A DNA stretch of 64,000 nt from a bacterium A37T11 (lineage in GTDB: Bacteria; Bacteroidota; Bacteroidia; Sphingobacteriales; Sphingobacteriaceae). Shown in pieces: positions 26,843-45,414 of this stretch; position 1 is the first letter of the stretch, and every line of letters begins with the position of its first letter. The notes under the pieces were generated by a model. It was given only the letters and a program-made list of their open reading frames with translations. It ran no database searches and was not told where the DNA came from. The DNA lies in assembly GCA_900109895.1 (NCBI GenBank), contig FOBR01000007.1, forward strand, positions 124,001 through 188,000, in the 5' to 3' direction. The position numbers and the translations under genes were made by a program.

Positions 26843-27385
26843 TTATTTTTTCAACCGGAACACGCTGTTCTTCCTTCCGGGTCTGTTGGAGTCCTCAGGT
26901 TGCTCGGCGGCGTATTCAACTAAGTATCTTAGTGAGCCTTTGGTAAGTAAAACCGTAATGCGGTTGGCTGTTATCTGTCTTTTAATGGTCCTCTCTAATA
27001 GGCTGTAAACTTGATTGGAAGTGAATATTTCGGGTAGTTTTCCAGAGTCTAGGATTGTTTTTACGTGTACAGGAAGTTGTAATTCATCATTTTTCTCAAT
27101 AACACCCTTTTCCATTCTTTCAGAAATTAACTGCTTGGTTTTTAATGGTAAATTTTCAAGATCTGGTATAGCTTGATCAGGATTAACCATTTGACAATAG
27201 GTTAACCCATAGACAGCCGCAATTTTATATGCCAAATCCAGATCTACAGTCCTTTTTCCTGATTCAACACCTGTGTAATCTCCTCGTTTGCCATTATAGA
27301 GGCCAGTAATATTATCTTGTGATAGAGTAAAATGTTTCCTGTATTTTCTCGCTATTATTCTAAATTTATCACTTTCACCACTCAC
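26843..27385 (-). CDS. Helix-turn-helix DNA-binding protein
   Basis: 180-residue protein with an N-terminal Xre/HTH_3-like domain (about 8-70: KHFTLSQDNITGLYNG, YTGVESGKRTVDLDLAYKIAAVYGL). The second half (about 75-160) is helical and ends in a basic tail. Such proteins often regulate neighbouring genes in Bacteroidota. It is divergent from the hairpin element and the SusCD-TlpA operon and may control them; this is inference. Confidence 0.75.
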   Translation of the reverse strand: MSGESDKFRIIARKYRKHFTLSQDNITGLYNGKRGDYTGVESGKRTVDLDLAYKIAAVYGLTYCQMVNPDQAIPDLENLPLKTKQLISERMEKGVIEKNDELQLPVHVKTILDSGKLPEIFTSNQVYSLLERTIKRQITANRITVLLTKGSLRYLVEYAAEQPEDSNRPGRKNSVFRLKK

Positions 27386-28011: not shown

Positions 28012-31000
28012 ATGAATAAACTTTATTCAATGGCACACTATTGCCCTAATTTCCGGCTAAAAATAACCAAAATAAAGCAAATAAAAAGCAATTCGCTTTT
28101 CGCATTATGCTTTTCGCTATTTAATTCTTTCGGGCTGGCGGCATATAGTCAGGAAAAGAAACCAGATACGACCCGTAAAACTTTAACCGACTCCGTATTT
28201 CAATTAAACGAAGTACAAGTTAGCACCGGTATCCAGTACATTCCCAAAGAACGGGCTACTGGTAGTTTTGTGCTGGTAGACAGTACCCTCTTCAACCGCA
28301 GTTTTTCCATAGATGTCACCAGCCGGTTGGAGGGGGTGGTTAGTGGCCTTCGGTTTAACCGTCAGGACATGAACCCCAAAAACGTAGATCTGACCATCCG
28401 CAGCACCAGCACCATCCGGTCCGATGACCAGCCGCTCATCATCCTGGATAATTTTGAGTACAACGGCGACCTGAAAAACATCAATCCAAATGATGTACTT
28501 CAGGTCTCGGTGCTCAAAGACGCCGCTGCGGCCAGCATTTGGGGAGCTCGTGCCGGTAACGGTGTGATCGTTATTACGACCAAGCAGGGTAAATATAATC
28601 AACCTACACGAGTTTCTCTTAGTAGTAACCTAGCCACCAAAGGCAAGCAAAATCCGTTCAATACCCCCTGGCTCTCTACCTCTGACTACATTGATATGGA
28701 AACTTATCTGTTTAAGCAGGGCTATTATACCAGTGCGTTGGGGAATATCAGTAAACCGCCTGTTTCCCCAATAGTATGGTTATTAAATGAACGAAAAAAA
28801 GGGCTTATTTCTGCGGCAGATTCCGCTGCCGCCATTGATCAATATCGTGGCATAGACGCCAGGAACGACTTTCGCCAATATTACTTTCAGCGAAGCATTT
28901 CGCAGCAGCATGCGCTTTCACTGACTGGAGGAGGAGCCTTTAACCAGTACTACGCATCGGTCGGTTGGGATAAAAATCAAGGTGGAACGGTAGGATCTGC
29001 CTATGACCGCCTATCCCTTTCTTTTAACCACAGCATTGGCTTTTTTGATAATAAACTGGAAGTAAAAACAGGCATTATTTATACCAAGACACAGGATCAG
29101 CTAAATGACCCGTATCCTGCAATCACCTATCCTTACGCACAGCTGGCGGATGCGGAAGGGAACAGCCTTTCCATCGCCCGGTACAATCCCGGCTTTTTAG
29201 ATACCATAGGGCAGGGACGCCTTCTGGATTGGGGCTACCGTCCATTGGAGGAATTGGCGCTGGCAGACAATACTGTCAAAACATCCGATCTGAAGGTTAA
29301 CCTGAATATCGGGTACCGCTTGTTTGAGTGGCTAAAGGTCAAAGCCCTTTATCAGTATGGCGATGGCCAAACCACAACCCGCAATTATCAAAGCCAGGAA
29401 ACCTTCTATACCCGCGACTTAATCAATCAATTTTCGTCCATTGCCTCGAATGGACAGGTTAGCCGGCCTATACCATTGGGCGGTATTGTTGACCTAAAAA
29501 ATACTCACTATATAGCACAACATCTGCGTGGGCAGCTGGACCTGCAACATCGCTGGCAGGCGCACGAACTACAAGGACTTATCGGTGCTGAATTAAGTAA
29601 TCTCAACACCCAGGCAAATGGCTCTAGGTTTTACGGGTATAACGAGGGGCAAACCAGTAGCAGCAACGTGGACGCTGTAAACGCTTATACAAGCATGGTC
29701 ACCGGACGGAAGAATATACGAATCGCAAACGGGCAGAGCCTTCGATATCTCACCGATCGCTTTTTGTCCTTTTATGCGAATGCCAGTTATAGTTACATGA
29801 AGCGATATACCTTATCCGGTAGCATGCGAAAGGACGGATCTAATCTTTTTGGGGTCGCTACTAACCAAAAATGGTCGCCACTGTGGTCTACCGGTTTCAA
29901 ATGGGATATTTCCAAAGAGCCTATTTATCAGATTTCCTGGTTGCCGTCATTAAGCATACGGCTTAGCTATGGTACCAGCGGCAATATTAATAAAACAGTT
30001 TCTGCCTATTTAGTAGCCCGCTCCCTCGGTTCCAACAACTATGGGCTACCCATCCTGAACATAAGCAATCCGCCTAATCCGGACCTTACCTGGGAAACGG
30101 TTGCTACGCTCAATGCGGCCCTAGATTTTAGCGTGCTGCAATCTGGTCGAATTAGTGGGAGCTTAGAATTTTATCAGCGGAAAGGACGTAATCTCATGGC
30201 CGATGCAGAGCTTCCGGCAGCAAGCGGGCTGCTAACGTATCGCGGCAATACAGCTTCGATGAGTGGTAAGGGCGTAGACCTAAGTTTTAACAGCCAAAAC
30301 CTGGTTGGCGCATTACATTGGCAGACTGCAGTATTATATAGCTATACTACCAATCGGGTGACTGAATACCGTGTTACGCCAACGAATAACAGCAGTTACC
30401 TCAGTGGGGCCTACCAAGTTGGGAAATCTTTGGATGGCTTTTATGTCTATCGCTGGGCTGGTCTGGATCCGCAAAATGGCAATCCACGTGGTTATTTGAA
30501 CGGGCAGGTCAGTGAAGATTATGCCGCTATGGTCAACTCTACTGATTTGAGTGACCTGCACTATGTAGACAGCCACCGGCCTGTTCATTATGGAAGCATT
30601 AGAAATACAGTTGGCTGGCAACATATTTCTTTGTCATTCAATGTGACCTTTAAGATAGGGTATTACTTCGGCAACAGTTTACTAAACTACAGTAATCTGT
30701 ATGGCGGATCTTTTACAGGAGGTGCGGCAGACTTTCCAATGAGATGGCAAAAACCTGGCGATGAAGCCCATACGCAGGTACCATCCCTGGTATACCCCGC
30801 GGTGTCTTCGCGGGATAACTTTTATAACAATTCAGAAGCAATAGTCGAAAAAGGCGATCATATTCGCTTTCAGGACATCCGTTTGGCGTATGAAATTATT
30901 AAAAAGACGGCCACCTGGCTCCCCTTTCGCAACCTGCAATTTTTTGCGATGGCGGCTAACGTGGGGCTCATCTGGAAAGCGACAAAAAGCCGCATGGATC

Positions 31001-31062
31001 CCGACTATGGTTATCAGTATACGCAAACCCGCTTTTCCGGCGGGATAAAAATTGAATTATAA
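28012..31062 (+). CDS. SusC-like TonB-dependent receptor, short N-terminus
   Basis: 1016-residue outer-membrane receptor without STN or CarboxypepD_reg domains. After a long signal region ending AAYSQ, the TonB-box-like FQLNEVQVSTG is followed directly by the plug (ERATGSFVLVDSTLF, LIILDNFEYNGD, ASIWGARAGNGVIVITTKQG) and barrel ending GGIKIEL. It is a close paralogue, by motif, of the truncated receptor at 39512-42787. The operon partners are SusD and a TlpA thioredoxin, not glycosidases, so the ligand may be a peptide or a modified protein. Confidence 0.93.
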   Translation: MNKLYSMAHYCPNFRLKITKIKQIKSNSLFALCFSLFNSFGLAAYSQEKKPDTTRKTLTDSVFQLNEVQVSTGIQYIPKERATGSFVLVDSTLFNRSFSIDVTSRLEGVVSGLRFNRQDMNPKNVDLTIRSTSTIRSDDQPLIILDNFEYNGDLKNINPNDVLQVSVLKDAAAASIWGARAGNGVIVITTKQGKYNQPTRVSLSSNLATKGKQNPFNTPWLSTSDYIDMETYLFKQGYYTSALGNISKPPVSPIVWLLNERKKGLISAADSAAAIDQYRGIDARNDFRQYYFQRSISQQHALSLTGGGAFNQYYASVGWDKNQGGTVGSAYDRLSLSFNHSIGFFDNKLEVKTGIIYTKTQDQLNDPYPAITYPYAQLADAEGNSLSIARYNPGFLDTIGQGRLLDWGYRPLEELALADNTVKTSDLKVNLNIGYRLFEWLKVKALYQYGDGQTTTRNYQSQETFYTRDLINQFSSIASNGQVSRPIPLGGIVDLKNTHYIAQHLRGQLDLQHRWQAHELQGLIGAELSNLNTQANGSRFYGYNEGQTSSSNVDAVNAYTSMVTGRKNIRIANGQSLRYLTDRFLSFYANASYSYMKRYTLSGSMRKDGSNLFGVATNQKWSPLWSTGFKWDISKEPIYQISWLPSLSIRLSYGTSGNINKTVSAYLVARSLGSNNYGLPILNISNPPNPDLTWETVATLNAALDFSVLQSGRISGSLEFYQRKGRNLMADAELPAASGLLTYRGNTASMSGKGVDLSFNSQNLVGALHWQTAVLYSYTTNRVTEYRVTPTNNSSYLSGAYQVGKSLDGFYVYRWAGLDPQNGNPRGYLNGQVSEDYAAMVNSTDLSDLHYVDSHRPVHYGSIRNTVGWQHISLSFNVTFKIGYYFGNSLLNYSNLYGGSFTGGAADFPMRWQKPGDEAHTQVPSLVYPAVSSRDNFYNNSEAIVEKGDHIRFQDIRLAYEIIKKTATWLPFRNLQFFAMAANVGLIWKATKSRMDPDYGYQYTQTRFSGGIKIEL

Positions 31063-31079
31063 TCCTAATAACGATAAAC

Positions 31080-32441
31080 ATGAATATAAGAATAAACGTA
31101 TTGATCCTTTGTGGCTGCCTGGTGTCGTGTAACAGTTACCTGGATGCCGTACCCGATAGATCACTGGCCATATTGACAACCTTAGAACAGTATGAACAGC
31201 TTATTAATGGCGACTTGTATGCTCAGGCTCCGGCCCTTCAGGAGTTAGGCATTGATGATTATTATGTGCCTTTTTCAGTTTGGCAATCCAAAGACATCCG
31301 GTTGCAAAACGCTTATATTTGGAAAGCAGATATTTACGACGGGAACAGTGGTTCAGGTGTTACCCAAGACTGGAATGCACCCTATGGTAAGATCTATTAT
31401 TGCAATGTCGTGCTTGAAGGACTGGAAAGCCTTAGTGGTAGCCATGAATCGGCCGCATTCAGGGAAGTGAAGGGACATGCCCTGTTTTTTCGGGCATACC
31501 AGCACTATTTGCTGCAAGAGGTCTACGGGCAACCCTACCGTCCAGCCACTGCCAATATGGACTTGGGCATCCCGCTTAAATATACGTCCTTACCTACAGA
31601 ACGTATTTTCAGGTCAACTGTCGCAAAAACATTTGCCAGTATTATCCTTGACTCAGAAAAAGCGCTTGAAATGCTGCCGGAAGACTATCAAGCTGTAAAC
31701 AAAGTGCGCGCATCAAAGGCAGCCGTCTGTGCCTTTTTAAGCAGAGTGTATTTAACCATGCAGAACTACCAGCAGTCGTTGGCCTATGCGGACCAGTGTT
31801 TAAGTTATTATGTGCAATTACTGGACTATAACCAACTTTATCCCGATTATCGTTTTGGCTATCCGGACAACCAAGAAGTAGTGTTTTCGGTCAATGCCAG
31901 CGGTACGAGTGGCGTCTTTTTGAATACCGGAATATTTGTAGACTCTCTCCTATATCCGTTATATGCAGATCATGACTTGCGTAAACAAGTATTCTTCCTG
32001 CAAGACGCAACCACGGGTCTTCCTCATTTTAAAAGCATGTATTCCGGAGATTCCAATCCCTTTGCCGGCTTGGCGCTTGATGAAGTATACCTGAACCGGG
32101 CTGAATGCCGGGCACGTTTGGGGGACGAGGACGGTGCCTTGGCGGACTTAAATGAACTATTGATTCATCGCTACGAAACCGGATACTATTTTCCATTGAC
32201 CCGCGAAAGCGCTGGTAATACGCTGCAAGCCGTGTTAAAAGAAAGGCGAAAGGAAATGGTGGTCCGGTGTACCCGCTGGACGGATCTCAGAAGGCTAAAC
32301 CAAGATCCGGCTCTGGCAACGACATTAAGACGCTCGTTAAATGGAACAGATTATGAACTGCTACCAAACAGTCCTCGTTACACCTATCCCATTCCACCCA
32401 AGGAAGCCGCCATCAGTCAGCTACCTCAAAATCAACGTTAA
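31080..32441 (+). CDS. SusD/RagB lipoprotein
   Basis: 453-residue SusD-family lipoprotein (lipobox region CLVSC, Cys about 16). Features: KGHALFFRAYQHYLLQEVYGQPY, DEVYLNRAECRARLGDEDGALADLN, and KERRKEMVVRCTRWTDLRRLN. Shorter than the polysaccharide SusDs in this window. 17 nt after SusC and 6 nt before the thioredoxin gene. Confidence 0.93.
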   Translation: MNIRINVLILCGCLVSCNSYLDAVPDRSLAILTTLEQYEQLINGDLYAQAPALQELGIDDYYVPFSVWQSKDIRLQNAYIWKADIYDGNSGSGVTQDWNAPYGKIYYCNVVLEGLESLSGSHESAAFREVKGHALFFRAYQHYLLQEVYGQPYRPATANMDLGIPLKYTSLPTERIFRSTVAKTFASIILDSEKALEMLPEDYQAVNKVRASKAAVCAFLSRVYLTMQNYQQSLAYADQCLSYYVQLLDYNQLYPDYRFGYPDNQEVVFSVNASGTSGVFLNTGIFVDSLLYPLYADHDLRKQVFFLQDATTGLPHFKSMYSGDSNPFAGLALDEVYLNRAECRARLGDEDGALADLNELLIHRYETGYYFPLTRESAGNTLQAVLKERRKEMVVRCTRWTDLRRLNQDPALATTLRRSLNGTDYELLPNSPRYTYPIPPKEAAISQLPQNQR

Positions 32442-32447
32442 CAAAAT

Positions 32448-32957
32448 ATGAAACAGGTTATAATAGTCTTCGTTACATGGGTGATCGGTCTTCTGCAGGT
32501 GCAGGGACAGCAAGTTGGTAAACCTGTTCCCGCATTTCGGTTGGAAGATAGCGAAGGGCACTTCATAAATCTGGCTGATTTCGAAGGGAAAGTGGTTGTT
32601 ATTGATATTTGGTATACCGGTTGCAGCAGTTGTGCCTATTTTTATCAACACGTTTTATCGGGCATAGAAAACGAGTTTCTTTCAAAAAATGAGGTGGTAT
32701 TCATATCGGTATCTACGGATAAAGATCGGAAATGTTGGTTGAAAAGCGTTGCAGGGGGTAACTATACTTCGTCCAAGCTTATCAATGTATATACTGGGGG
32801 TAAGGGATTCCAACATGCCTTACTTACTTTTTATGATGTAGAGCGTTTCCCTTATCTCCTTATAATAGATAAAAAGGGTAACCTGCACGCAGCGATTGAT
32901 ACAGTCAATCATTATTCTACGGAACAGATTACCCAACTAATTAAGGATGTGCATTAA
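32448..32957 (+). CDS. TlpA-like thioredoxin-fold protein
   Basis: 169-residue secreted thioredoxin-like protein. Signal peptide (1-21, ending VQGQ), then the AhpC-TSA/redoxin fold: VPAFRLEDSEGHFINLADF, VVVIDIWYTGCSSCAYF with redox pair C-S-S-C, and RFPYLLIIDKKGN with the cis-proline. It probably forms or reduces disulfides in the periplasm. Last gene of the SusCD-TlpA operon, facing the DUF6520-like peptide and MauE genes across a shared terminator. Confidence 0.9.
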   Translation: MKQVIIVFVTWVIGLLQVQGQQVGKPVPAFRLEDSEGHFINLADFEGKVVVIDIWYTGCSSCAYFYQHVLSGIENEFLSKNEVVFISVSTDKDRKCWLKSVAGGNYTSSKLINVYTGGKGFQHALLTFYDVERFPYLLIIDKKGNLHAAIDTVNHYSTEQITQLIKDVH

Positions 32958-32961
32958 CCTG

Positions 32962-32996
32962 AAACGGCTGGACCACGCATCCAGCCGTTTTTGTTG
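32962..32996. terminator. Bidirectional terminator between convergent genes
   Basis: AAACGGCTGGA (32962-32972) pairs with TCCAGCCGTTT (32980-32990), 7-nt loop. T-runs on one side and A-runs on the other serve both strands. Confidence 0.75.
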
Positions 32997-33011
32997 CCAG
33001 ATTATTTAACC

Positions 33012-33341
33012 TCAGTTAGCATACGGACCGTTGCCCGATGTAGTGAAGTCGGCATCATCGTCTACATACCAACCATTTGCAGCGTCGCCCTGAATGGTCA
33101 CATCGCCTTCTTCAAAGCTGATTCTACATGGATAGCTAGCAAGACCACATGATCCACTAGTAGTGCTGATCGGACTGGCTGTGATGTATAAACGGTGATT
33201 TCCTGAATCCTGACTCAGCACACCGTAAACAACCGTTGCCACCTTTTTAGTCTTGTCTTCCTTAAAAGACATCATCACTACGCCCATCAATAGGGCACCC
33301 ACTACGGTGAACGTATTCACCTGTAAAAGCAATTTTCTCAT
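33012..33341 (-). CDS. DUF6520-like small secreted protein
   Basis: 109-residue protein with an N-terminal hydrophobic segment (about 5-26) after MRKLL, as in DUF6520 peptides of Bacteroidota. The mature part has exactly two Cys, in SGSCGLASYPCRISF (about 69 and 76), which could form a disulfide, and an acidic C-terminal half with a Gly/Asn-rich end. Family assignment is by size, context and Cys pattern. Downstream of the MauE-like gene on the same strand and convergent to TlpA. Confidence 0.6.
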   Translation of the reverse strand: MRKLLLQVNTFTVVGALLMGVVMMSFKEDKTKKVATVVYGVLSQDSGNHRLYITASPISTTSGSCGLASYPCRISFEEGDVTIQGDAANGWYVDDDADFTTSGNGPYAN

Positions 33342-33452
33342 TGCAGTAAAAAGTTTAATTTGTTTGTTGCCACCATGGCCCTTGAAGCCTTCGCCTGGTG
33401 ATCGTTACTTCTCAGTTCTGCGCAGGGCCGGCTTTTGCCCTGCTGTCGCTGG

Positions 33453-33941
33453 TCATCCACTATTCCTGGCCACCTCCTTTCGCACTTTTAAACGGTGTAA
33501 CCATCTGTTGATATATGAGAGCCAGCCCTTCTGTAGGGCAAGGACGGTCATAGCGAGTAAGATAAAGATTGTGTTGAAGCGCAGGTTGGCCATAAAAGAA
33601 CCTTTCTCCAAAAAGCCCATACAGGCACAGGGTTGTGTTTTGAAGCTCCCGGCCATCCCCAGGATGAGGTAGCCGGTTAACACGGCCAGCATCCGTAAGG
33701 TCGCCCGCAAGCCATACAACCGTGTGGGATGGTAGCTTAACAGCGCTGCCAAGATCAGCTGCAATACAGGCAGCGCCCAGGCGATGATATGCGCCAACTT
33801 TTCAGTAAAGATCTGTTCATCCATCTGCTCCCGCGCCTTGTCCAGGTCGGTCAGCTGATCCCATGCGGCAAAGAGCAACGTCAGGGATATCACTGCCGTC
33901 AGGACATTTACGATCAACTCTTTTTTTGCTGCTGTTTTCAT
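33453..33941 (-). CDS. MauE/DoxX-like redox-associated membrane protein
   Basis: 162-residue inner-membrane protein with four predicted TM helices (about 10-28, 48-66, 76-94, 112-130) and the loop motif KTQPCACMGF typical of MauE-like proteins. MauE proteins support disulfide formation of periplasmic partners. Encoded 111 nt upstream of the DUF6520-like peptide on the same strand. Together with the TlpA protein it suggests a disulfide-processing pathway. Confidence 0.8.
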   Translation of the reverse strand: MKTAAKKELIVNVLTAVISLTLLFAAWDQLTDLDKAREQMDEQIFTEKLAHIIAWALPVLQLILAALLSYHPTRLYGLRATLRMLAVLTGYLILGMAGSFKTQPCACMGFLEKGSFMANLRFNTIFILLAMTVLALQKGWLSYINRWLHRLKVRKEVARNSG

Positions 33942-34094: not shown

Positions 34095-35279
34095 TTAAAT
34101 TCCGCTCATCAACGTTTTCCACGCCTGCTTTTCGGAGGTTTTTAGATTATCCAACAAGTCCGGATATTCCTTAAACAAACGGAGTATCATGGCCAGCAAT
34201 AAATAATATACCCCTTCCAGCGTATGCTGCGAAGGATCTTTACTGTGGTTGAGCAGGCTTTTTACACTCAGTTCTTCTTTCTGTCCGCGGGTATTGATCA
34301 CTGATGCCAGTGCCTCCATCACCTGTTTTTTCGTATACTCCTTGGGGAAGATGCCCAGGTCTATCCACAGTTGCACCAGGATGGACAGTTGAGGTGCAGA
34401 CACGGTGGCTTTGACTTTTTGGGTGAGGGGAGGGCTATTCAAATCAAGGTGGCTTAGCTCAAAGTTGATCCGGGCGATGAGGCATTCCCGCAAAGAATTG
34501 CGGTCGGCGGCATAATAATATTTGCGGCTTTCTTCCTGGTGCTCCAGCTGCAGGCGGTAGTAGCGCAGTTTCTTTTCAGCATCATCTCCAATAGCCATAT
34601 CGGTTATCTGCTGTTTGAGGAAGCGTTGAATGGGGTAGTGGTTAAAATTTAAGTAAACCAGCTCTTGTATCAGGGTGGTTTCCGTCTCCGGCCCGTCCGC
34701 ATGCAGCATGTTTTCCAGTGCACGGCCCAGCTTTTGGCCATAAGCCACTTGATGAAAACTCAATAGATGGCCTGTACCTTTACACAGAGGCAAAAAGTAG
34801 TCGCCCATCAAATATTCCCATTGCGGGCTCACCGGAGCCATACGCAAAGAGTTTATGAGCCGTTTGCGCAGGTTTTTAAAAGCTGGGGCCACCTGCGCAG
34901 CCGCAAAATCCGGAATCCGAAGGTACCGGTGCTGGCCAGCTGGGTAGAGGATGTGCAGGGAGGCGATCGTCTCTTCCAGGCTGCGCATACCTTGCTGCCA
35001 TAACCCGTAAAACGGATGTGCTGAAGTACCATGGTGGGCATATTGCCAAAGTTGGTTGCTGTAGTCAACCAACAGATCCTGCCGGATGCACAGGTTGAGG
35101 ATGGCTATTTCGGGGTTGCCAGACAGGGCCACCGACCGAAAAACATGCTCCCCGACCAGGATTATGCCATTTTTTAGTTGCGTGCGCAAGGATGTTAATG
35201 CAGGGTCTGCCATCCCTTCCCCAACCCCAGGATTGAGTTCTTGGGTAATCCAGTGACCAAAACGGTATATCTCTTCCAT
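34095..35279 (-). CDS. Hypothetical protein, possibly RteC-like
   Basis: 394-residue soluble, mostly helical protein. I do not recognise it firmly. The C-terminal third (SAPQLSILVQLWIDLGIFP, KKQVMEALASVINTR, LSVKSLLNHSKDPSQHTLEGVYYLLLAMI) has the pattern seen at the end of RteC-type proteins of conjugative transposons: a helical module with a conserved Leu-rich start and a short Ser-x-x-Ser-Leu segment. A primase relic 3.5 kb away supports a mobile-element origin, but this is inference. A 41-bp repeat lies 49 bp upstream. Confidence 0.5.
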   Translation of the reverse strand: MEEIYRFGHWITQELNPGVGEGMADPALTSLRTQLKNGIILVGEHVFRSVALSGNPEIAILNLCIRQDLLVDYSNQLWQYAHHGTSAHPFYGLWQQGMRSLEETIASLHILYPAGQHRYLRIPDFAAAQVAPAFKNLRKRLINSLRMAPVSPQWEYLMGDYFLPLCKGTGHLLSFHQVAYGQKLGRALENMLHADGPETETTLIQELVYLNFNHYPIQRFLKQQITDMAIGDDAEKKLRYYRLQLEHQEESRKYYYAADRNSLRECLIARINFELSHLDLNSPPLTQKVKATVSAPQLSILVQLWIDLGIFPKEYTKKQVMEALASVINTRGQKEELSVKSLLNHSKDPSQHTLEGVYYLLLAMILRLFKEYPDLLDNLKTSEKQAWKTLMSGI

Positions 35280-35393: not shown

Positions 35394-36968
35394 CTAGTTC
35401 GAAACCTCTTCTTGAAAGGCAATGTCGCCTTTGGTGAAAGCGATGGCGAGCTTATGAATCCTTTTCTTTTGATTTAAGAAGGGTTTAGCATAGCCAGTAG
35501 CTTCAATTTGGCTCATGGCTTCTTTGACCGAAGCTGAAAGTGCTTCTTTGGTTTTGGCGTATTTAATCTCCACCACATACACCCGGTCTTTGAATTTGAG
35601 TACCGAATCGGTCCGGCCCGTACCGGTATGGCTTTCTGATTGATGATTAATATTGGCCAGGATCATTGCCAGCTGGAAAAGCGCATGGTAAAACCCTTCG
35701 TTCTTATTGGTAGTTTGCGTGTCGTAGGTAATATTAGAAAGTAATTTATCCAGGTTATCCATCGCAGCGGCAGTGTCGCCTTTGGCAAACGCTTCCCGCA
35801 TGTTGATGCCCAGATCGTGCAGAGCAGGCAGGTCTTCATTGGTCAAATCCGTTAATACCAACTCCGATATGGCCGTACGCACTTCCTCGTTCGGTATCTG
35901 CAGGTAATAATACCCCTCTTTCCGGTCAAACGCATGAATCGTCAGGTAACCTGCCTGAAACAACAAGGCCAGGCTGTTTAAGCTTTCGATCCGCTGACCC
36001 TCAGTAAAGGTCTCCGTCACACGGATGGATTCCTTCAGTACTTTTTCCAGCGTATCTTTGGTTTTTAGAAGTTTCAGCAGGAATGTTGGCGTGCCGCTGC
36101 TGTACCAGAACGGCTTGTAGCGGCTTTTATCAAAGAGCAAGAGCACCGAGTACGGATTATACACAAAAGTCTCTGCATCCCAGCTATACCCGTTGTACCA
36201 AAGCTTTACTTCAGCAAGGGTTTCTGCCTTGGTTGTGTCGTTGGCCTGAGCCGTTGCCTGTATATAATCAGGAAAATACGCTTCAAGTTCCTGCTGAGTA
36301 TACCCGCAGATGCCCGCATATTGCGCATCAAAGCTAATGTCGTTCAGATTATTGAACCCTGAGAAGATCGTTGTCTGGCTGATCTTTGTAATACCCGTGA
36401 CTACCAAAAGCTTCAGGTAATCGGAAGAGGCTTTTAATGCCCCATAAAATGTATAAAGTACCTTCCGCATTTCATTGGCTAGATCCAGGTCATCAATCTT
36501 GTCTAAAATAGCTTTATCGTACTCATCTACCAATACCACCACCTGCTTTCCGGTCTTTATATAAAGTCGACGGACTAGCTGACCCAGCATGTCTGAGGGC
36601 GAATTAGGATCATCATCAATTTCCACACCGTTCAATTCGGCGATGGTTTGCAACAAACGGGATAGGCCCGTTTTCAGGGTATGGGGACTTTCTGAGTTCA
36701 AAGTCATATCCAACACGATCACCGGATATATTTCCCAATCCATCTTGCCTTCGACATAAAGCCCCTTAAACAACTCCTTTTTACCCTCAAAAAGAGCCTT
36801 GATTGTGCTTAGTAACAAACTTTTGCCAAAACGCCGGGGGCGACTCAGGAAGATATATCCGGCGCTGGTTGTCAGCAAACGATGGATATAGGGGGTCTTG
36901 TCTACATAGACAAAATCACCTTTTCTGAGTTTTTCAAACGATTGTTCGCCAACGGGTAAATTCTTCAT
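35394..36968 (-). CDS. AAA-ATPase-like/PDDEXK nuclease-family protein (DUF1703 type)
   Basis: 524-residue protein of the AAA-ATPase_like plus PDDEXK_9 family, abundant in Bacteroidota with unknown function. Start motif: PVGEQSFEKLRKGDFVYVDKT. Walker-like SRPRRFGKSLLLS is at about 42-54, VVVLVDEYDKAIL at about 140-152, and the C-terminal nuclease-like DRVYVVEIKYAKTKEAL at about 470. Probably an accessory or selfish-type gene. It sits between direct repeats together with HigBA. Confidence 0.9.
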   Translation of the reverse strand: MKNLPVGEQSFEKLRKGDFVYVDKTPYIHRLLTTSAGYIFLSRPRRFGKSLLLSTIKALFEGKKELFKGLYVEGKMDWEIYPVIVLDMTLNSESPHTLKTGLSRLLQTIAELNGVEIDDDPNSPSDMLGQLVRRLYIKTGKQVVVLVDEYDKAILDKIDDLDLANEMRKVLYTFYGALKASSDYLKLLVVTGITKISQTTIFSGFNNLNDISFDAQYAGICGYTQQELEAYFPDYIQATAQANDTTKAETLAEVKLWYNGYSWDAETFVYNPYSVLLLFDKSRYKPFWYSSGTPTFLLKLLKTKDTLEKVLKESIRVTETFTEGQRIESLNSLALLFQAGYLTIHAFDRKEGYYYLQIPNEEVRTAISELVLTDLTNEDLPALHDLGINMREAFAKGDTAAAMDNLDKLLSNITYDTQTTNKNEGFYHALFQLAMILANINHQSESHTGTGRTDSVLKFKDRVYVVEIKYAKTKEALSASVKEAMSQIEATGYAKPFLNQKKRIHKLAIAFTKGDIAFQEEVSN

Positions 36969-37076: not shown

Positions 37077-37442
37077 TTACAACTCTACACCCAGTACAGT
37101 TGCTGCATTGATCTTTAGCTTACGGCTGATGGTTCTCGCTATTTTTAACGTAGGCTCGCTTTTGCCGGTGAGGTATTCGCTGACACGCGACGGACTAACG
37201 TCGAGGATGGCGGATAATTCGGCTTGGTTAAGGTCCATTTCGTACATGCGCAACTTAATGACCTCGGATAATGATGGAGGCTCAACCGGATAATGCAGAT
37301 CTTCATAATCAGCTATTAGATCTGACAATAAGTCCAGCTCTATAAAATCCTTGTTATCTGATGGTGTTTCGTTTCCAACAATCTGTAAAAGTTCTTCAAT
37401 CCTTTCACAAGCAGCTTTGTATTGTTGTTCTGACTTAATCAT
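37077..37442 (-). CDS. higA: HigA-type antitoxin
   Basis: 121-residue HTH antitoxin. The N-terminal helical part is followed by a SEVIKLRMYEMDLNQAELSA segment and an Xre HTH ending SRVSEYLTGKSEP (about 70-115). HigA-like antitoxins of this class bind the toxin through the N-terminal half and repress the operon. The toxin gene lies upstream with a 3-nt gap (toxin first, the usual HigBA order). Confidence 0.85.
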   Translation of the reverse strand: MIKSEQQYKAACERIEELLQIVGNETPSDNKDFIELDLLSDLIADYEDLHYPVEPPSLSEVIKLRMYEMDLNQAELSAILDVSPSRVSEYLTGKSEPTLKIARTISRKLKINAATVLGVEL

Positions 37443-37445
37443 AAC

Positions 37446-37739
37446 CTAAATATTTGCACAATCTATTTTGTCATATTCTTTATGAGTACCAATAAACCGG
37501 ATATACAATTTTTGGGAAGCAAAGATAACAATGGCTACCAGCCTGTACGTATTGCCTCTAATATTAAAGACATATCGGTTATTGCCTACGTTGTCCACAC
37601 TATTAAACGTATTTTTTATATCAGCAAAATTTGCCCACGTACTTGCTTCGACTTTCTTGTACCAGTCTCTTAAGGCAACATCTGCATCCGGATACACCGT
37701 TGAAAATTCCCTAATCCTTGCAAATGTGACAATCCTCAT
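37446..37739 (-). CDS. higB: HigB-type mRNA interferase toxin
   Basis: 97-residue toxin of the HigB (RelE-superfamily) type: MRIVTFARIREFSTVYPDAD, ALRDWYKKVEASTWANFADI, NRYVFNIRGNTYRLVAIV and LYIRFIGTHKEYDKID are characteristic. Predicted ribosome-dependent mRNA cleavage when free of HigA. Confidence 0.88.
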   Translation of the reverse strand: MRIVTFARIREFSTVYPDADVALRDWYKKVEASTWANFADIKNTFNSVDNVGNNRYVFNIRGNTYRLVAIVIFASQKLYIRFIGTHKEYDKIDCANI

Positions 37740-39511: not shown

Positions 39512-42500
39512 TCATCTAGGACTAGCAGCACGGGACACTTTCATTTTTTTTTCTATGCCTTGCCTGTATTTTCCTTTTCCTGTCGTCTGAAGCCACCTGG
39601 CATTGATATCCCTGTTAACATATAAGAAAGCATCACCGGATGATATCGCCATTTTACTATAATTGATGGTAGGCTTTCGGAAATAATATCCAATTTTGTA
39701 ACTGATCTGCACGGCCAGGCTTAAGCCCCTGTATGAAAAGCGATTGTTGATGGCGCCAAAGTAGGTGGGGCGTGCAGGGCCTGCGTAAATCAGGTCAGTT
39801 AAAGGGGTGTTGTTAAGGATCGAATTATAGTCCTGGCTTTGTTCACCATTAATATATCCATATGGATTTCCAGTGCCGTGGTCAAGCCCGGCCCATTTAA
39901 AACCATAAAGACCGAAAACGGGCTTTCCGACTACTGGGGATGCGCCCGTCATATTTCCGTCAGCACTTACCAAAGCGGTTGTATAGGGCTCAATATCATA
40001 CTTCGTAACTTTATCGGTAGCATGACTGAATAAAACTGTGGTGTTCCATTTAAATGCACCACGAAGGTTATTTGAAGTAAGTGTAATATCAAATCCCCTG
40101 CCTTTCATGTCCGAATAGTTGCCACGCAAGGACGTAATACCACTGTTTGAAGGAAATAACCGGTCGCCCAAAATATCGGTTTCCTTTTTAATAAAATATT
40201 CCAGGCTGCCGGACAAAATGTTGTCTTGGGTACTAAAATCAATGGCGAAGTTTGTTATGCCTGTTTTCTCCCAGCGGAGGTCAGGATTGCCGATATTGGA
40301 AATCATCACATAATTCAGTCCTGTATAACGCGCATTACTGTAATATTGGAACGTGGTCATGCCTGTAACCGAATAATCCATATTTCCGTTGTAGCCGTAA
40401 CTTCCCCTAAAAGAGAGTGTCGGCACCCATGACAAATGATAAAATTTTTCCTTGGAAATATCCCACTTACCACCAATTGACCAAAGTGGGACATTTTTTT
40501 GGTTGGTCGATACGCCAAAATAATTTGTGCCGTCAATACGGCTGCTGCCCGAAATGTAATAACGGTTTTTATAGCTGTATAAGGCGTTTGCGAAAGTTGA
40601 ACGGATGCGGACCAATGTTCCATTGACGCTAAGCCCGCTATTAATTTGCGAATATCCACCTGTGGGATTGATTGGAAAATAATTTACGGCATCTATATTG
40701 GTAAAGGTTGCGAGATCATTATTATAGCCGTAAAGCACAGAACTATTTCCCTCACTTGTGGTTTGCGACAACTCGTACCCCGCCAGTATAGTAAGGGAAT
40801 GATCGCCAAAAGACCTGTCAAAATTTAACTGGCCCCTGAAATTTTGTGCTATCGAATTTGAATTTCCCTGGTTAAGAATACCGCCTAAGGGGATGTTATA
40901 ACCATTCACCTTACCATCAATAACATTTGAAAACATGTTAATCAGGTTGCGGGTGTAGTACGTGTCCTGGCTGTTATAAATACTGCTTTGCACATTTCCC
41001 CGTTGGTATTGGTAACGAATCTCGCCACTAAACCCTTGGATAAATTTATATTTTAAGGCAGTATTCAGCCTGATGTTTAGATTTTTTACCGTATTATCGG
41101 TCGCACCGAGTTCATTAAGCGGATAATATTTCCAATCTAAAAAACCATTCTCTGAAGCACTTTGCACGTAACTTTGCCTGTATCCATATACTATAGGTAA
41201 AGCACTTCCATTGGCATCGGCCACCTGCGAGTAAGGGAAGAGCGTATTGCTAAGTGCTAAAAGATTACTCCCGCCTTTATTTATCCCCTGGATGAAATAA
41301 ATGCCTGTATTTATCTCCAGGCCCTTTGCTGGATAAAAGGAATTCTGTGAATTAAGGGTTATTCTTTGAAAAGTATTAGTTTTTTGTGTTGGCAGGTCCT
41401 TATCGTAACCGGCAGAGAAATAATATATCGCCTTATCCGAACCACCGGAGAGGTTCAACGCATATTGCTGGTTGACGGCTTTTTGATAAAAATATTTGCT
41501 AAGCTGGTCGTTTATATTGTAGTTCTTCAGTTTATCCAACTGTTTATCAAGGTCTGTGGGGTTAGCTGCAAAAAGCTCCACTGCCGGGGAAATCACAGGG
41601 TAAGAGCTGGTATTACTAAGACTGCCATCATAAAACCCGTTCTTAAATAAAAATCCCTCCATGTCGATATAAGAAGAGGCATCAAGCTGGTTCGGGTTGT
41701 ATTTTAAGTCGGGCCTTCCCGATACCGTCAGGTTTGCATTAAAAGATACTTTTAGTTGCTGGTTAGCCCTGCCTTTTTTGCTGGTAAAGACAATAACACC
41801 ATTCCCTGCACGTACACCCCAAATACTCGCAGCTGCCGCATCGCGCAAGATCGTAGGCTCATCATAATCATTGGGATTTATATCAGATATATCACCGGAG
41901 TATGGAAAATTATCAACTATAATAAGAGGCTGGTCATTTGCGAAAATTGTATTACGGCCACGGATATTAATGTCGTATCCATTGGCTGCTGCAGATGTAT
42001 TGGAATTAAAAACCAACCCGCTTGTAATACCCGATAATTTCGATATAAGGTCTGTTGAAACCCGCTGCCTATACATTTCTTTAATGGGCTGTACAAAACT
42101 GCCTGTCACCCTTTCCTTGGAAATGTTTTGGTAGCCTGTGGCGACAATAGCCACTTCGTTCAATTTATTATTAAGCTGGTGTAGGACTATATCCTGAAAT
42201 GGCATATTTTCAGAAACTGTGAAAAGATATGGGGTAAATCCGACAAAGGATACCGTAACCAGGTCGCCAGTCTCGGCCTCAAAACTAAATTCGCCATTTG
42301 GACCAGTGGTAAAGCGTTCTGCCTTTCCCTGTATCGAAATACTGGCCCCCATCAGATAGGTGCCCGTAGTATCGGTAACTTTACCAATAATTTTCTGCGA
42401 TGGGTTGCTCATGCGTTTACCTTTAGGGAGCAATGATTTTTCCTTTGCTTTTACAATAATTGTATTATCCACAATCTCATAAATAAGCGGTTGTCCGGCA

Positions 42501-42787
42501 AAGCATTTATCCAGTGCCTCAGAAAGACTGACATGATCAATGTGAATAGTTACAAGGGCAGTATTTTTAAGCAGGTCATTTTTATAAAAGAAACTATATC
42601 CGCTCTGCTTCTCTATCTGTTTGAAGATTTTGGCAAGCGGTGCGTTTTTCTCATTTAAGGTAATGGTTTGTGCATGAACGGAGGCAGACACCTTAAAACA
42701 AGCCAGGAAGATAAGAAGTAAAGAAAGCTTCATAACCAAGAGTGTTTTAATAAGCCGCCCCCAGTAGGAGAGCGTAAAAATTTGCAT
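39512..42787 (-). pseudogene. SusC-like receptor with STN domain, C-terminus lost
   Basis: 1091 residues: signal peptide ending SVHAQ, STN domain (about 40-110: ITLNEKNAPLAKIFKQIEKQ), CarboxypepD_reg-like domain (about 130-205), TonB box LNEVAIVATGYQN, plug (LIIVDNFPYSGD, ASIWGVRAGNGVIVFTSKKG) and most of the barrel. Compared with the paralogue at 28012-31062, it stops about 85-90 residues early, soon after TINYSK, with a basic tail ending AASPR, and lacks the final barrel strands. A run of nine A bases (minus strand) precedes the aberrant end. No susD follows. Probably non-functional as a transporter; the signalling part is intact. Confidence 0.8.
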
Positions 42788-43487: not shown

Positions 43488-44693
43488 TTATGGTGTTATT
43501 ATTAACTTGTTATCTTCTATTTTTGAATGAATTCCACCAGATTGCAGTATTTTTAACAAACTAGATAGGTTTGAACTGCGGGAAATACCTCCTGTGAAAA
43601 GTTCTTTTTTGATTTTACCTTTATATACGACATCCACATTGTACCACCTGCTTATTGTACGCATAATGGTAGGGATGTCTGCATCTTTAAAGTAAGTCTT
43701 GCCATTTTTCCAGGCTACTGCTGCATCAATATCAGCAGTATTGATAGTAATCTTGTCCGTTGCCATTGACTGTTGTCCTGGTTTTATAAATTCTGTATGT
43801 CCACCTTTTGATACCTTAACTGATCCTTCAAGAAGGGTAGTAATAATAGATTCTTCATTCTCATAGGATGAAATATTAAAGGAGGTACCTATGACATCAA
43901 CCTGCTGCCCCCTACTTTTTACAATAAATGGTTGATCCTTAACCTTAGCTACCTCGAAAAATGCTTCGCCATTGATTTCGACTTCTCTTTTACTTATTGA
44001 AAATCGACTTGGATATTTCAAGGTACTGGCTGCGTTGAGCCAAACCTTAGTTCCGTCGCTGAGTATTATTTGGTATTGACCACCCTTAGGAGTACTAAGT
44101 TGCAACAGCGCGTCATGCTGAACTTGATTCAGCATCTCACCCGACTTTGGGGATGTTTTGGCTGATATAGGTCCGGGATGACGGCCTGAAACAGATTCAC
44201 CATTTTGATATTTAATATCTTCGTCCTGAACAATGATTCCGCTTTGCGCTGAATCTAAACTTATTATTTTACCATTAGCTAAAGTCAGCGTGGCTTGGTT
44301 ATAGCCAGGTAAAATGTCTTGATTTACGAGTTTAGATTTACGATTTACGATGAAATCACTTCTAAAAAAGTATAGGGCTATGGCTAAGGCTATAATAAAC
44401 AGGGCGGCGATGGCGGCATATTTTAATAGGGGTATTTTGCGGATCGTTTTCCTGGACTCATATTCGTCTATGGCAGCTGGTAGGGTTTCGTCGAGGTGTT
44501 GGACGAATTCCTGGACGGATGCCGGTATTTCGTTTTGTGCGTCAAGTTGTTGTAGTTCCTGATGAATTAAGGTACGGAGGGTGCTTTGGTCGTCTTCCAG
44601 ATCAAAATACCGGAGCAGTTCCCGGATTTCTTCGGGGGTGGCCTGCTGGTTCAGGTACTTTTTAAAAAGGGTTATGATCTGTTCGGTATTCAA
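43488..44693 (-). CDS. FecR-type anti-sigma factor with REP-like insertion
   Basis: 401-residue anti-sigma factor from a TTG start at 44693, chosen because AGGAG (minus strand, 44701-44705) sits 7 nt upstream. Longer frames start inside the promoter. N-terminal sigma-binding part, TM (about 92-112, AAIALFIIALAIALYFF), FecR domain (LSTPKGGQYQIILSDGTKVWL, GEAFFEV) and DUF4974 (IPTIMRTISRWYNVDV). Between TM and FecR domain about 25 residues come from a REP-like palindrome (GEMLNQVQHD). The frame is kept, so it may still work. Confidence 0.9.
   Translation of the reverse strand: MNTEQIITLFKKYLNQQATPEEIRELLRYFDLEDDQSTLRTLIHQELQQLDAQNEIPASVQEFVQHLDETLPAAIDEYESRKTIRKIPLLKYAAIAALFIIALAIALYFFRSDFIVNRKSKLVNQDILPGYNQATLTLANGKIISLDSAQSGIIVQDEDIKYQNGESVSGRHPGPISAKTSPKSGEMLNQVQHDALLQLSTPKGGQYQIILSDGTKVWLNAASTLKYPSRFSISKREVEINGEAFFEVAKVKDQPFIVKSRGQQVDVIGTSFNISSYENEESIITTLLEGSVKVSKGGHTEFIKPGQQSMATDKITINTADIDAAVAWKNGKTYFKDADIPTIMRTISRWYNVDVVYKGKIKKELFTGGISRSSNLSSLLKILQSGGIHSKIEDNKLIITP
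44111..44183. repeat. REP-like interspersed palindrome inside fecR
   Basis: Outer arms CGTCAT (44111-44116) and ATGACG (44178-44183). Inner TGCTGAA (44117-44123) with TTCAGCA (44128-44134). Translation on the minus strand includes GEMLNQVQHD, a sequence I have often seen encoded by such repeats. Confidence 0.7.
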
Positions 44694-44717
44694 AGCTATT
44701 CTCCTAAATTTTGAACC

Positions 44718-44743
44718 TAATACGCTTGGCAGCAAAAGTTCGG
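44718..44743 (-). promoter_or_regulatory. Predicted ECF-sigma promoter of the second fecR
   Basis: Minus strand CCGAAC, 13 nt (TTTTGCTGCCAAG), CGTATTA. It has the same 13-bp spacing as the promoters at 17073 and 19877 and the canonical ECF -35 core GAAC. The SD AGGAG lies about 12 bp downstream. Confidence 0.5.
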
Positions 44744-44811: not shown

Positions 44812-45414
44812 TTAGCAGAGGCCGTGGACAATGTTCGCCGCCAGAATAAGCATCAAAAGGTCTTGGTTCAGGTGTTCTTTCAGAAAGGAATTAGCCTTTT
44901 TGACATGGTCGTGTATCGTATTGACCGAAATGCCCACCATCTGGCTGACCTCTTCGTAGCTTTTTTCCTCGAGTTTAATGAGGGAAAAGACGTTTTTGCG
45001 TTGAGGAGGGAGCCCTTCTAAGGCTTTGAAGACCAGTTCGCGGTTTTCTTTGCGGGTGATCCAGGCATCAATGTTGTTATTTTCTTCCTCCCGGTATTCC
45101 TGAATAAACTGTTGAAATACTTTTTGGTCACGGGCGGCCTTGCGGAAATGGTCGGCAACGAGGTTTTCGGCTATTTTATAGAGGTAGGCTTTTACCGGTT
45201 GGTCAGGGTCTACTTGGGTGTGGTTGATCCAAACCTTCATAAACAGCTCTTGTAAAGCTTCCTCGGCCAGGTCATCCCGGCGCAGCAATCGTTTCAGGTT
45301 AACGCCCAGCCGGTGTTTATAGGTATGATAGAGCCGGGTAAATGCAGCGCGATCACCTTCCCGCAACCTTTCCAGGATTTCTTTTTCTGTTGCAGGGGTA
45401 AGGTCCGGTGTCAT
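44812..45414 (-). CDS. ECF RNA polymerase sigma factor
   Basis: 200-residue ECF sigma factor: region 2 (DRAAFTRLYHTYKHRL, DDLAEEALQELFMKVW) and region 4 (LPPQRKNVFSLIK, EEKSYEEVSQMVGISVNTIH). The tail LLMLILAANIVHGL is hydrophobic. 118 nt before fecR on the same strand. A housekeeping-type promoter lies upstream. Confidence 0.93.
   Translation of the reverse strand: MTPDLTPATEKEILERLREGDRAAFTRLYHTYKHRLGVNLKRLLRRDDLAEEALQELFMKVWINHTQVDPDQPVKAYLYKIAENLVADHFRKAARDQKVFQQFIQEYREEENNNIDAWITRKENRELVFKALEGLPPQRKNVFSLIKLEEKSYEEVSQMVGISVNTIHDHVKKANSFLKEHLNQDLLMLILAANIVHGLC

Follow-up and report, generated by a model that had tools for sequence, protein, structure and literature searches.

Comparative sequence analysis points to a widespread Bacteroidota receptor system encoded tail to tail with its own secreted one-loop peptide

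In Bacteroidota, import runs mainly through SusCD receptors, which are commonly interpreted as systems for taking up nutrients. We analysed one SusCD locus in a 64,000-nucleotide stretch of a Sphingobacteriaceae genome (bacterium A37T11, assembly GCA_900109895.1, contig FOBR01000007.1, forward-strand positions 124,001 to 188,000; hereafter the window). Between window positions 28012 and 33941, genes for a SusC receptor, a SusD lid and a TlpA-like thioredoxin with a CSSC active site lie on the plus strand, and convergent to them, on the minus strand, lie genes for a 109-aa protein with two cysteines and for a MauE-family protein. The comparisons below point to a widespread, apparently undescribed peptide-receptor system of Bacteroidota, in which the receptor is encoded end to end with its own secreted one-loop peptide. 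An earlier note on this DNA had raised the possibility of an undescribed system, and we found no description of the cassette layout, or of the peptide family DUF6520, in open-access papers.

Several described systems share parts of this cassette. The RagAB/SusCD importers (RagA, 6sli; SusCD, 8ypt/8ypu) have a SusC barrel, a SusD lid and TonB dependence in common with it, and RagAB has been implicated in protein uptake (PMC11817032). The likeness is by sequence only and distant (about 223 bits over 880 residues for the window SusC), and the descriptions of these importers that we found include no self-encoded peptide, MauE or TlpA partner; none of the open-access papers found deals with 8ypt/8ypu. 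In the mau cluster, the disulfide-rich small subunit of methylamine dehydrogenase, likewise a small exported protein with disulfides, is served by MauE and the thioredoxin-like MauD. The cassette, however, has no methylamine dehydrogenase gene, and its constant partner is the SusCD receptor. Bacteroidetocins are likewise small disulfide-bonded peptides of Bacteroidetes with a dedicated thiol oxidoreductase, but they are made with a double-glycine (GG) leader and a GG-peptidase ATP-binding cassette (ABC) transporter as mature toxins of 42-48 aa with four cysteines, and SusCD is not mentioned in their description (PMC6671954). The window peptide departs from them in having two cysteines, a Sec-type signal and no C39 gene in its cassette. 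Canonical members of DUF6520 (PF20130) share with the cassette peptides their position beside MauE and opposite convergent genes, in other families of Bacteroidota; they have four conserved cysteines, whereas the window peptide has two, and they lie next to a MauE protein that is longer, opposite an S9 peptidase.

The five genes that the earlier note had placed in this interval are all borne out by domain matches and sequence, and no glycosidase gene is encoded among them, as it had stated. The receptor (28012..31062, +) is a SusC/RagA-type TonB-dependent outer-membrane protein that exceeds the cut-offs of TIGR04056 (404.1 vs 368.25 bits) and TIGR04057 (50.2 vs 46.2 bits) and carries a Plug domain; a domain search found neither an STN nor a carboxypeptidase-like domain, and its nearest solved structures are 8ypu/8ypt, followed by RagA. 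The SusD/RagB-type surface lipoprotein lid (31080..32441, +; PF14322 113 bits, PF07980 42 bits) has the lipobox LVSC, with 8ypt_A as its nearest solved structure. The thioredoxin (32448..32957, +; Thioredoxin_8, PF13905/Redoxin, PF08534) has an N-terminal signal and the active-site motif WYTGCSSC. Opposite these genes, the peptide gene (33012..33341, -) stands directly downstream of the gene for the MauE-family inner-membrane redox protein (33453..33941, -; PF07291 75.5 bits, cut-off 27), which contains a PCAC motif. The convergent TlpA and peptide genes are separated by 54 bases, and this gap contains a hairpin (32961..32991) that folds strongly on both strands (-19.5 kcal/mol, z -4.9; -22.5 kcal/mol, z -4.8). 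It is probably a bidirectional terminator for the two genes, although a consensus terminator scan gave no call at this position.

The arrangement recurs within the same genome, where about 15 loci repeat SusC-SusD-(TlpA) facing peptide-(MauE), with a different peptide in each. The window's nearest relative, L004 (SusC 64%, SusD 61%, peptide 30%), carries its peptide without an adjoining MauE. Since a convergent two-Cys peptide, MauE or TlpA is found downstream at none of 20 other SusCD loci in this genome, taken as a control, the arrangement is far above chance. Of the 56 SusC genes with the best scores, a single one has a MauE match within 7 kb, and this match, at locus L048, is weak and has no peptide with it. 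A MauE-family search of the genome gave 22 matches, of which 20 have E<=1e-6; the other genomes of the family in which MauE was matched have 1-8.

It also recurs in other genomes. We sampled 60 MauE loci from the best matches in 200 genomes of the same family. MauE was called at 55 of them, with a nearby peptide in 50/55, SusC/SusD in 53/55 and TlpA in 49/55. The linkage of these families, for which the earlier note had proposed a genome-neighbourhood check, is thus strongly recurrent. Starting from the SusC clade, a search across the phylum found 80 named loci, about 10 of them ending at contig ends; 49 have a nearby convergent two-Cys secreted protein and 36 have MauE. Both samples consist of best matches, and gene calling relied on our own script with small reference sets, so these percentages are not unbiased frequencies. 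Related loci occur in Pedobacter, Mucilaginibacter, Sphingobacterium, Olivibacter, Dyadobacter, Emticicia, Algoriphagus, Siphonobacter, Chryseobacterium and Kaistella. At 21 phylum-wide loci, several of them inspected gene by gene, a peptide stands without any MauE called in its vicinity. SusCD and the peptide can persist together without MauE or TlpA, and this pair is therefore the core of the cassette, with MauE and TlpA as common additions. Two gene orders are found, with the peptide facing either TlpA-SusD-SusC or SusD-SusC-TlpA. The only thing in favour of chance, or of plain co-location of genes with no functional link, is that genes in mobile regions cluster in general; the same tail-to-tail geometry recurs across orders (median gap about 60 bp) and is absent from other SusCD loci. 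Cassette recurrence and the 0/20 control loci refute this explanation, to which we give almost no weight.

The window peptide consists of an N-terminal signal or transmembrane segment, a variable spacer, a disulfide loop (C65-x6-C72) and a tail ending in GNGPYAN. It has exactly the single Cys pair that the earlier note had described, with C65 encoded at 33147-33149 and C72 at 33126-33128. We compared 84 cassette peptides, picked for having a Cys pair of this spacing (mostly 6-7 residues between the cysteines), and found both cysteines, and no other columns, to be invariant. Among 59 peptides that lie between MauE and TlpA/SusD and were selected from position and signal segment only, 54 have exactly two cysteines. 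Selection for a Cys pair would account neither for the absence of other conserved columns nor for this count. A C-terminal GxF-like motif is found in 36/84 peptides, against a background of 0.23. For three pairs with estimable synonymous divergence, the ratio of nonsynonymous to synonymous substitution rates (dN/dS) of the peptide gene is about 0.2-0.3, and we therefore take the gene to be translated and constrained.

The family assignment, DUF6520-like in the earlier note, holds for the relatives and not for the window peptide taken alone, which has no Pfam match at E<=10, PF20130 included, and no NCBIfam match at E<=0.1, and retrieves almost no relatives across genomes as a sole query; its relatives were located via MauE or SusC anchors. 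Of the 84 cassette peptides, 35 match PF20130 at E<=0.01, and a profile-profile comparison (hhalign) of the cassette peptides with canonical DUF6520 gave 95.8%, versus only 17% for the window peptide's closest four. DUF6520 is, by sequence, the right family name for the peptide set, with a window member too diverged for recognition; its own link to the family runs through the relatives that match PF20130. At L031, L034, L085 and similar loci, peptides with more than two cysteines accompany a long MauE or an adjoining soluble protein of about 350 aa, and these loci resemble the canonical DUF6520 type.

To relate the peptide to its partners, we correlated protein distances over 67 cassettes with distinct SusC. 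Distances between mature peptides track those of SusC (rho 0.18, p 0.001) and SusD (0.15, p 0.001), and not those of MauE (0.00); letter-shuffled peptides gave a mean of 0.05 and a maximum of 0.08 with SusC. The peptide-receptor correlation persists within each gene order and in 58 loci outside the window's own genome. When the peptide is divided into segments, the signal segment follows MauE (0.23, p 0.001) but does not follow SusC, the spacer follows neither MauE nor SusC/SusD, and the loop and tail follow SusC/SusD only. The values against SusC are 0.11 for the Cys loop (p 0.002; shuffled maximum 0.05) and 0.19 for the tail (p 0.001; shuffled mean 0.12, maximum 0.15). A computation of the coupling window by window along the two receptor proteins revealed no sharp hot spot. 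The double dissociation between signal segment and loop plus tail, a correlation, is our main reason to think that the C-terminal half of the peptide may meet the receptor and its N-terminal helix MauE.

The redox partners keep their motifs, with CxC retained in 88/89 cassette MauEs and CxxC in 64/69 cassette TlpAs. We found no match to DsbB or VKOR in the genome, which makes MauE the best candidate for forming the peptide's disulfide; a role of MauE in disulfide formation has been speculated on for the mau system (PMC7794033). DsbD stands next to TlpA in Nafulsella, and S9 and M16 peptidases occur in other related loci. Such features could also fit a different role, in which SusCD imports foreign disulfide proteins as food and the peptide is a mere thiol carrier between MauE and TlpA: the Cys pair, CxC and CxxC are conserved, DsbD and peptidases are found in some operons, and the related RagAB has, as noted above, been implicated in protein uptake (PMC11817032). 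We consider this quite unlikely and rank such a redox relay low because the peptide and SusCD persist without MauE. The peptide also persists without TlpA, its variation follows the receptor and not MauE, and, although conservation would be expected of a carrier, the two cysteines alone are invariant.

Taken together, these comparisons lead us to a reading that we hold at roughly even confidence, in which MauE oxidises a self-encoded peptide, the cognate SusCD recognises its C-terminal half and TlpA acts reductively. The N-terminal segment would send the small protein to the inner membrane or periplasm, where MauE would form the loop disulfide, and the peptide would then be exported across the outer membrane. 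Loop and tail would be specifically recognised by the SusC-SusD pair encoded tail to tail with it, most likely as ligand or cargo, a step suggested by the co-diversification. TlpA would reduce and help to process the imported material, in some relatives perhaps with DsbD or an S9/M16 peptidase. The earlier note had likewise supposed that the peptide is oxidised and then exported or bound by the receptor; the Cys pair, the CxC and CxxC motifs, the lack of DsbB/VKOR matches and the co-diversification all speak for oxidation and binding, with binding the inferred part, and its interpretation as a whole is partly supported.

Several observations weigh against this oxidation, export and recognition scheme. 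The cassette peptides lack a lipobox and thus any known outer-membrane export signal, and they are probably too short for the usual domain of the type IX secretion system (T9SS). The signal segment of the window peptide has no clear AxA site and may stay uncleaved. An AlphaFold prediction from the 84 sequences gave no confident peptide fold (pLDDT 61, pTM 0.33). The correlations are modest, and joint inheritance of neighbouring gene pieces could partly contribute to them; the tail signal is explained in part by composition or length (0.12 of 0.19 in shuffled peptides), and in the window's own genome alone (n=9) the peptide tracks MauE at least as well. Some of these features would suit a peptide that stays in the cell. 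Its helix would remain in the inner membrane beside MauE, and its loop and tail would reach SusC from the periplasm, which would make it a subunit, plug or redox-dependent regulator of the receptor. The split between signal segment and C-terminal half, the missing lipobox, the lack of a clear cleavage site in the window peptide, the variable spacer and the lack of a confident fold are all compatible with such retention. We nevertheless regard this, the main rival to our reading, as unlikely, given that SusD, a surface lipoprotein, is tracked about as well as SusC, that peptide genes persist without a nearby MauE and that many relatives of the window peptide have plausible signal-peptidase sites.

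For the role of a secreted and recognised peptide, we prefer sensing or recapture of the cell's own product. Of the three roles offered by the earlier note (signalling, antagonism and scavenging), we rank antagonism last: the mature peptides are hydrophilic, with an acidic to neutral character (median net charge about -4), and no recurring immunity gene was seen. A bacteriocin-like toxin, with SusCD-TlpA serving self-uptake, detoxification or immunity, would have precedent in the Bacteroidetocins, whose genes for disulfide-bonded toxins adjoin those for a thiol oxidoreductase and a C39-type transporter (PMC6671954), and in cassette L042 MauE comes after genes for a C39 transporter and a RamC-like kinase. 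Such a toxin is improbable in view of the charge and hydrophilicity of the mature peptides, their Sec-type signal in place of a GG leader, the lack of general C39 linkage and of a recurring immunity gene, and the presence of about 15 copies in this one genome, with purifying selection in the tested pairs. The L042 group (L042:1651-6370) comprises a C39-peptidase ABC transporter, an AraC regulator and the RamC-like kinase directly upstream of MauE and the peptide, a possible connection to ribosomally synthesised and post-translationally modified peptides (RiPPs). More tentatively, the cassettes could form a phylum-wide, polymorphic self-recognition system in which loop and tail specify their own SusCD, like Gram-positive pherotypes, with many channels per genome and a FecR/sigma output in some.

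A FecR/sigma pair lies near about one third of the related loci, with FecR in 27 of the 80 and 16 of the 60 loci sampled, which likens these loci to STN-FecR-sigma surface signalling; ligand binding could therefore control transcription in that part of the family. The window cassette, unlike such systems, is without STN, FecR and sigma factor. Since its SusC lacks STN, sigma signalling does not directly apply to it, a further point against the scheme preferred here. In the window, the STN-FecR-sigma arrangement is found only at 39.5-45.4 kb, with a truncated paralogous SusC of the same clade and STN type (39512..42787, -), upstream of which lie genes for a FecR anti-sigma protein (43488..44735, -; PF04773, PF16344) and an extracytoplasmic function (ECF) sigma factor (44812..45414, -; TIGR02985 118 bits, just below cut-off; TIGR02937 87.6 bits, above). 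The paralogue is 41% to the window SusC over residues 64-912, and its last ~100 residues and SusD are absent. The earlier note had suggested that it could be a second, decayed member; there is no convincing remnant of SusD, TlpA, peptide or MauE around it, and it is either an orphan or a decayed cassette member.

Other features surround the cassettes. A helix-turn-helix (HTH) regulator gene divergent from SusC (26843..27385, -; HTH_3 E 0.0097) is an optional part, and its homologues are also divergent at L004 and L031, both in the same genome. The Bacteroidetes promoter pattern is no more frequent than by chance, and PADLOC anti-phage defence models gave no match for the peptide, MauE or TlpA. 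The window also encodes a 394-aa protein upstream of MauE that has no Pfam match (34095-35279), an AAA-ATPase_like/PDDEXK_9 protein (35394-36968) with homologues near L031 and L034 and also near two control SusCD loci, and adjoining small HigB-like and HTH proteins (37077-37739, -), a possible toxin-antitoxin pair. Near several cassettes of the same genome, a CHAP-domain hydrolase is grouped with a fibronectin type III (fnIII)-like protein (L039:4544-6352, L041:1535-3518, L045:4085-5924, L004:261-1711), joined in three loci by a small lipoprotein with a C-terminal transmembrane segment; the group is reminiscent of a lysis module. Tandem peptide genes face a single SusCD at L150:6327-6671, with its neighbour, and at L175:15911-16844.

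If this large receptor clade does carry its own secreted peptide, it would constitute a new class of SusCD whose ligand or partner comes from the same cell. DUF6520 and many MauE copies would then gain a place, and peptide communication or recapture in Bacteroidota would become directly testable.

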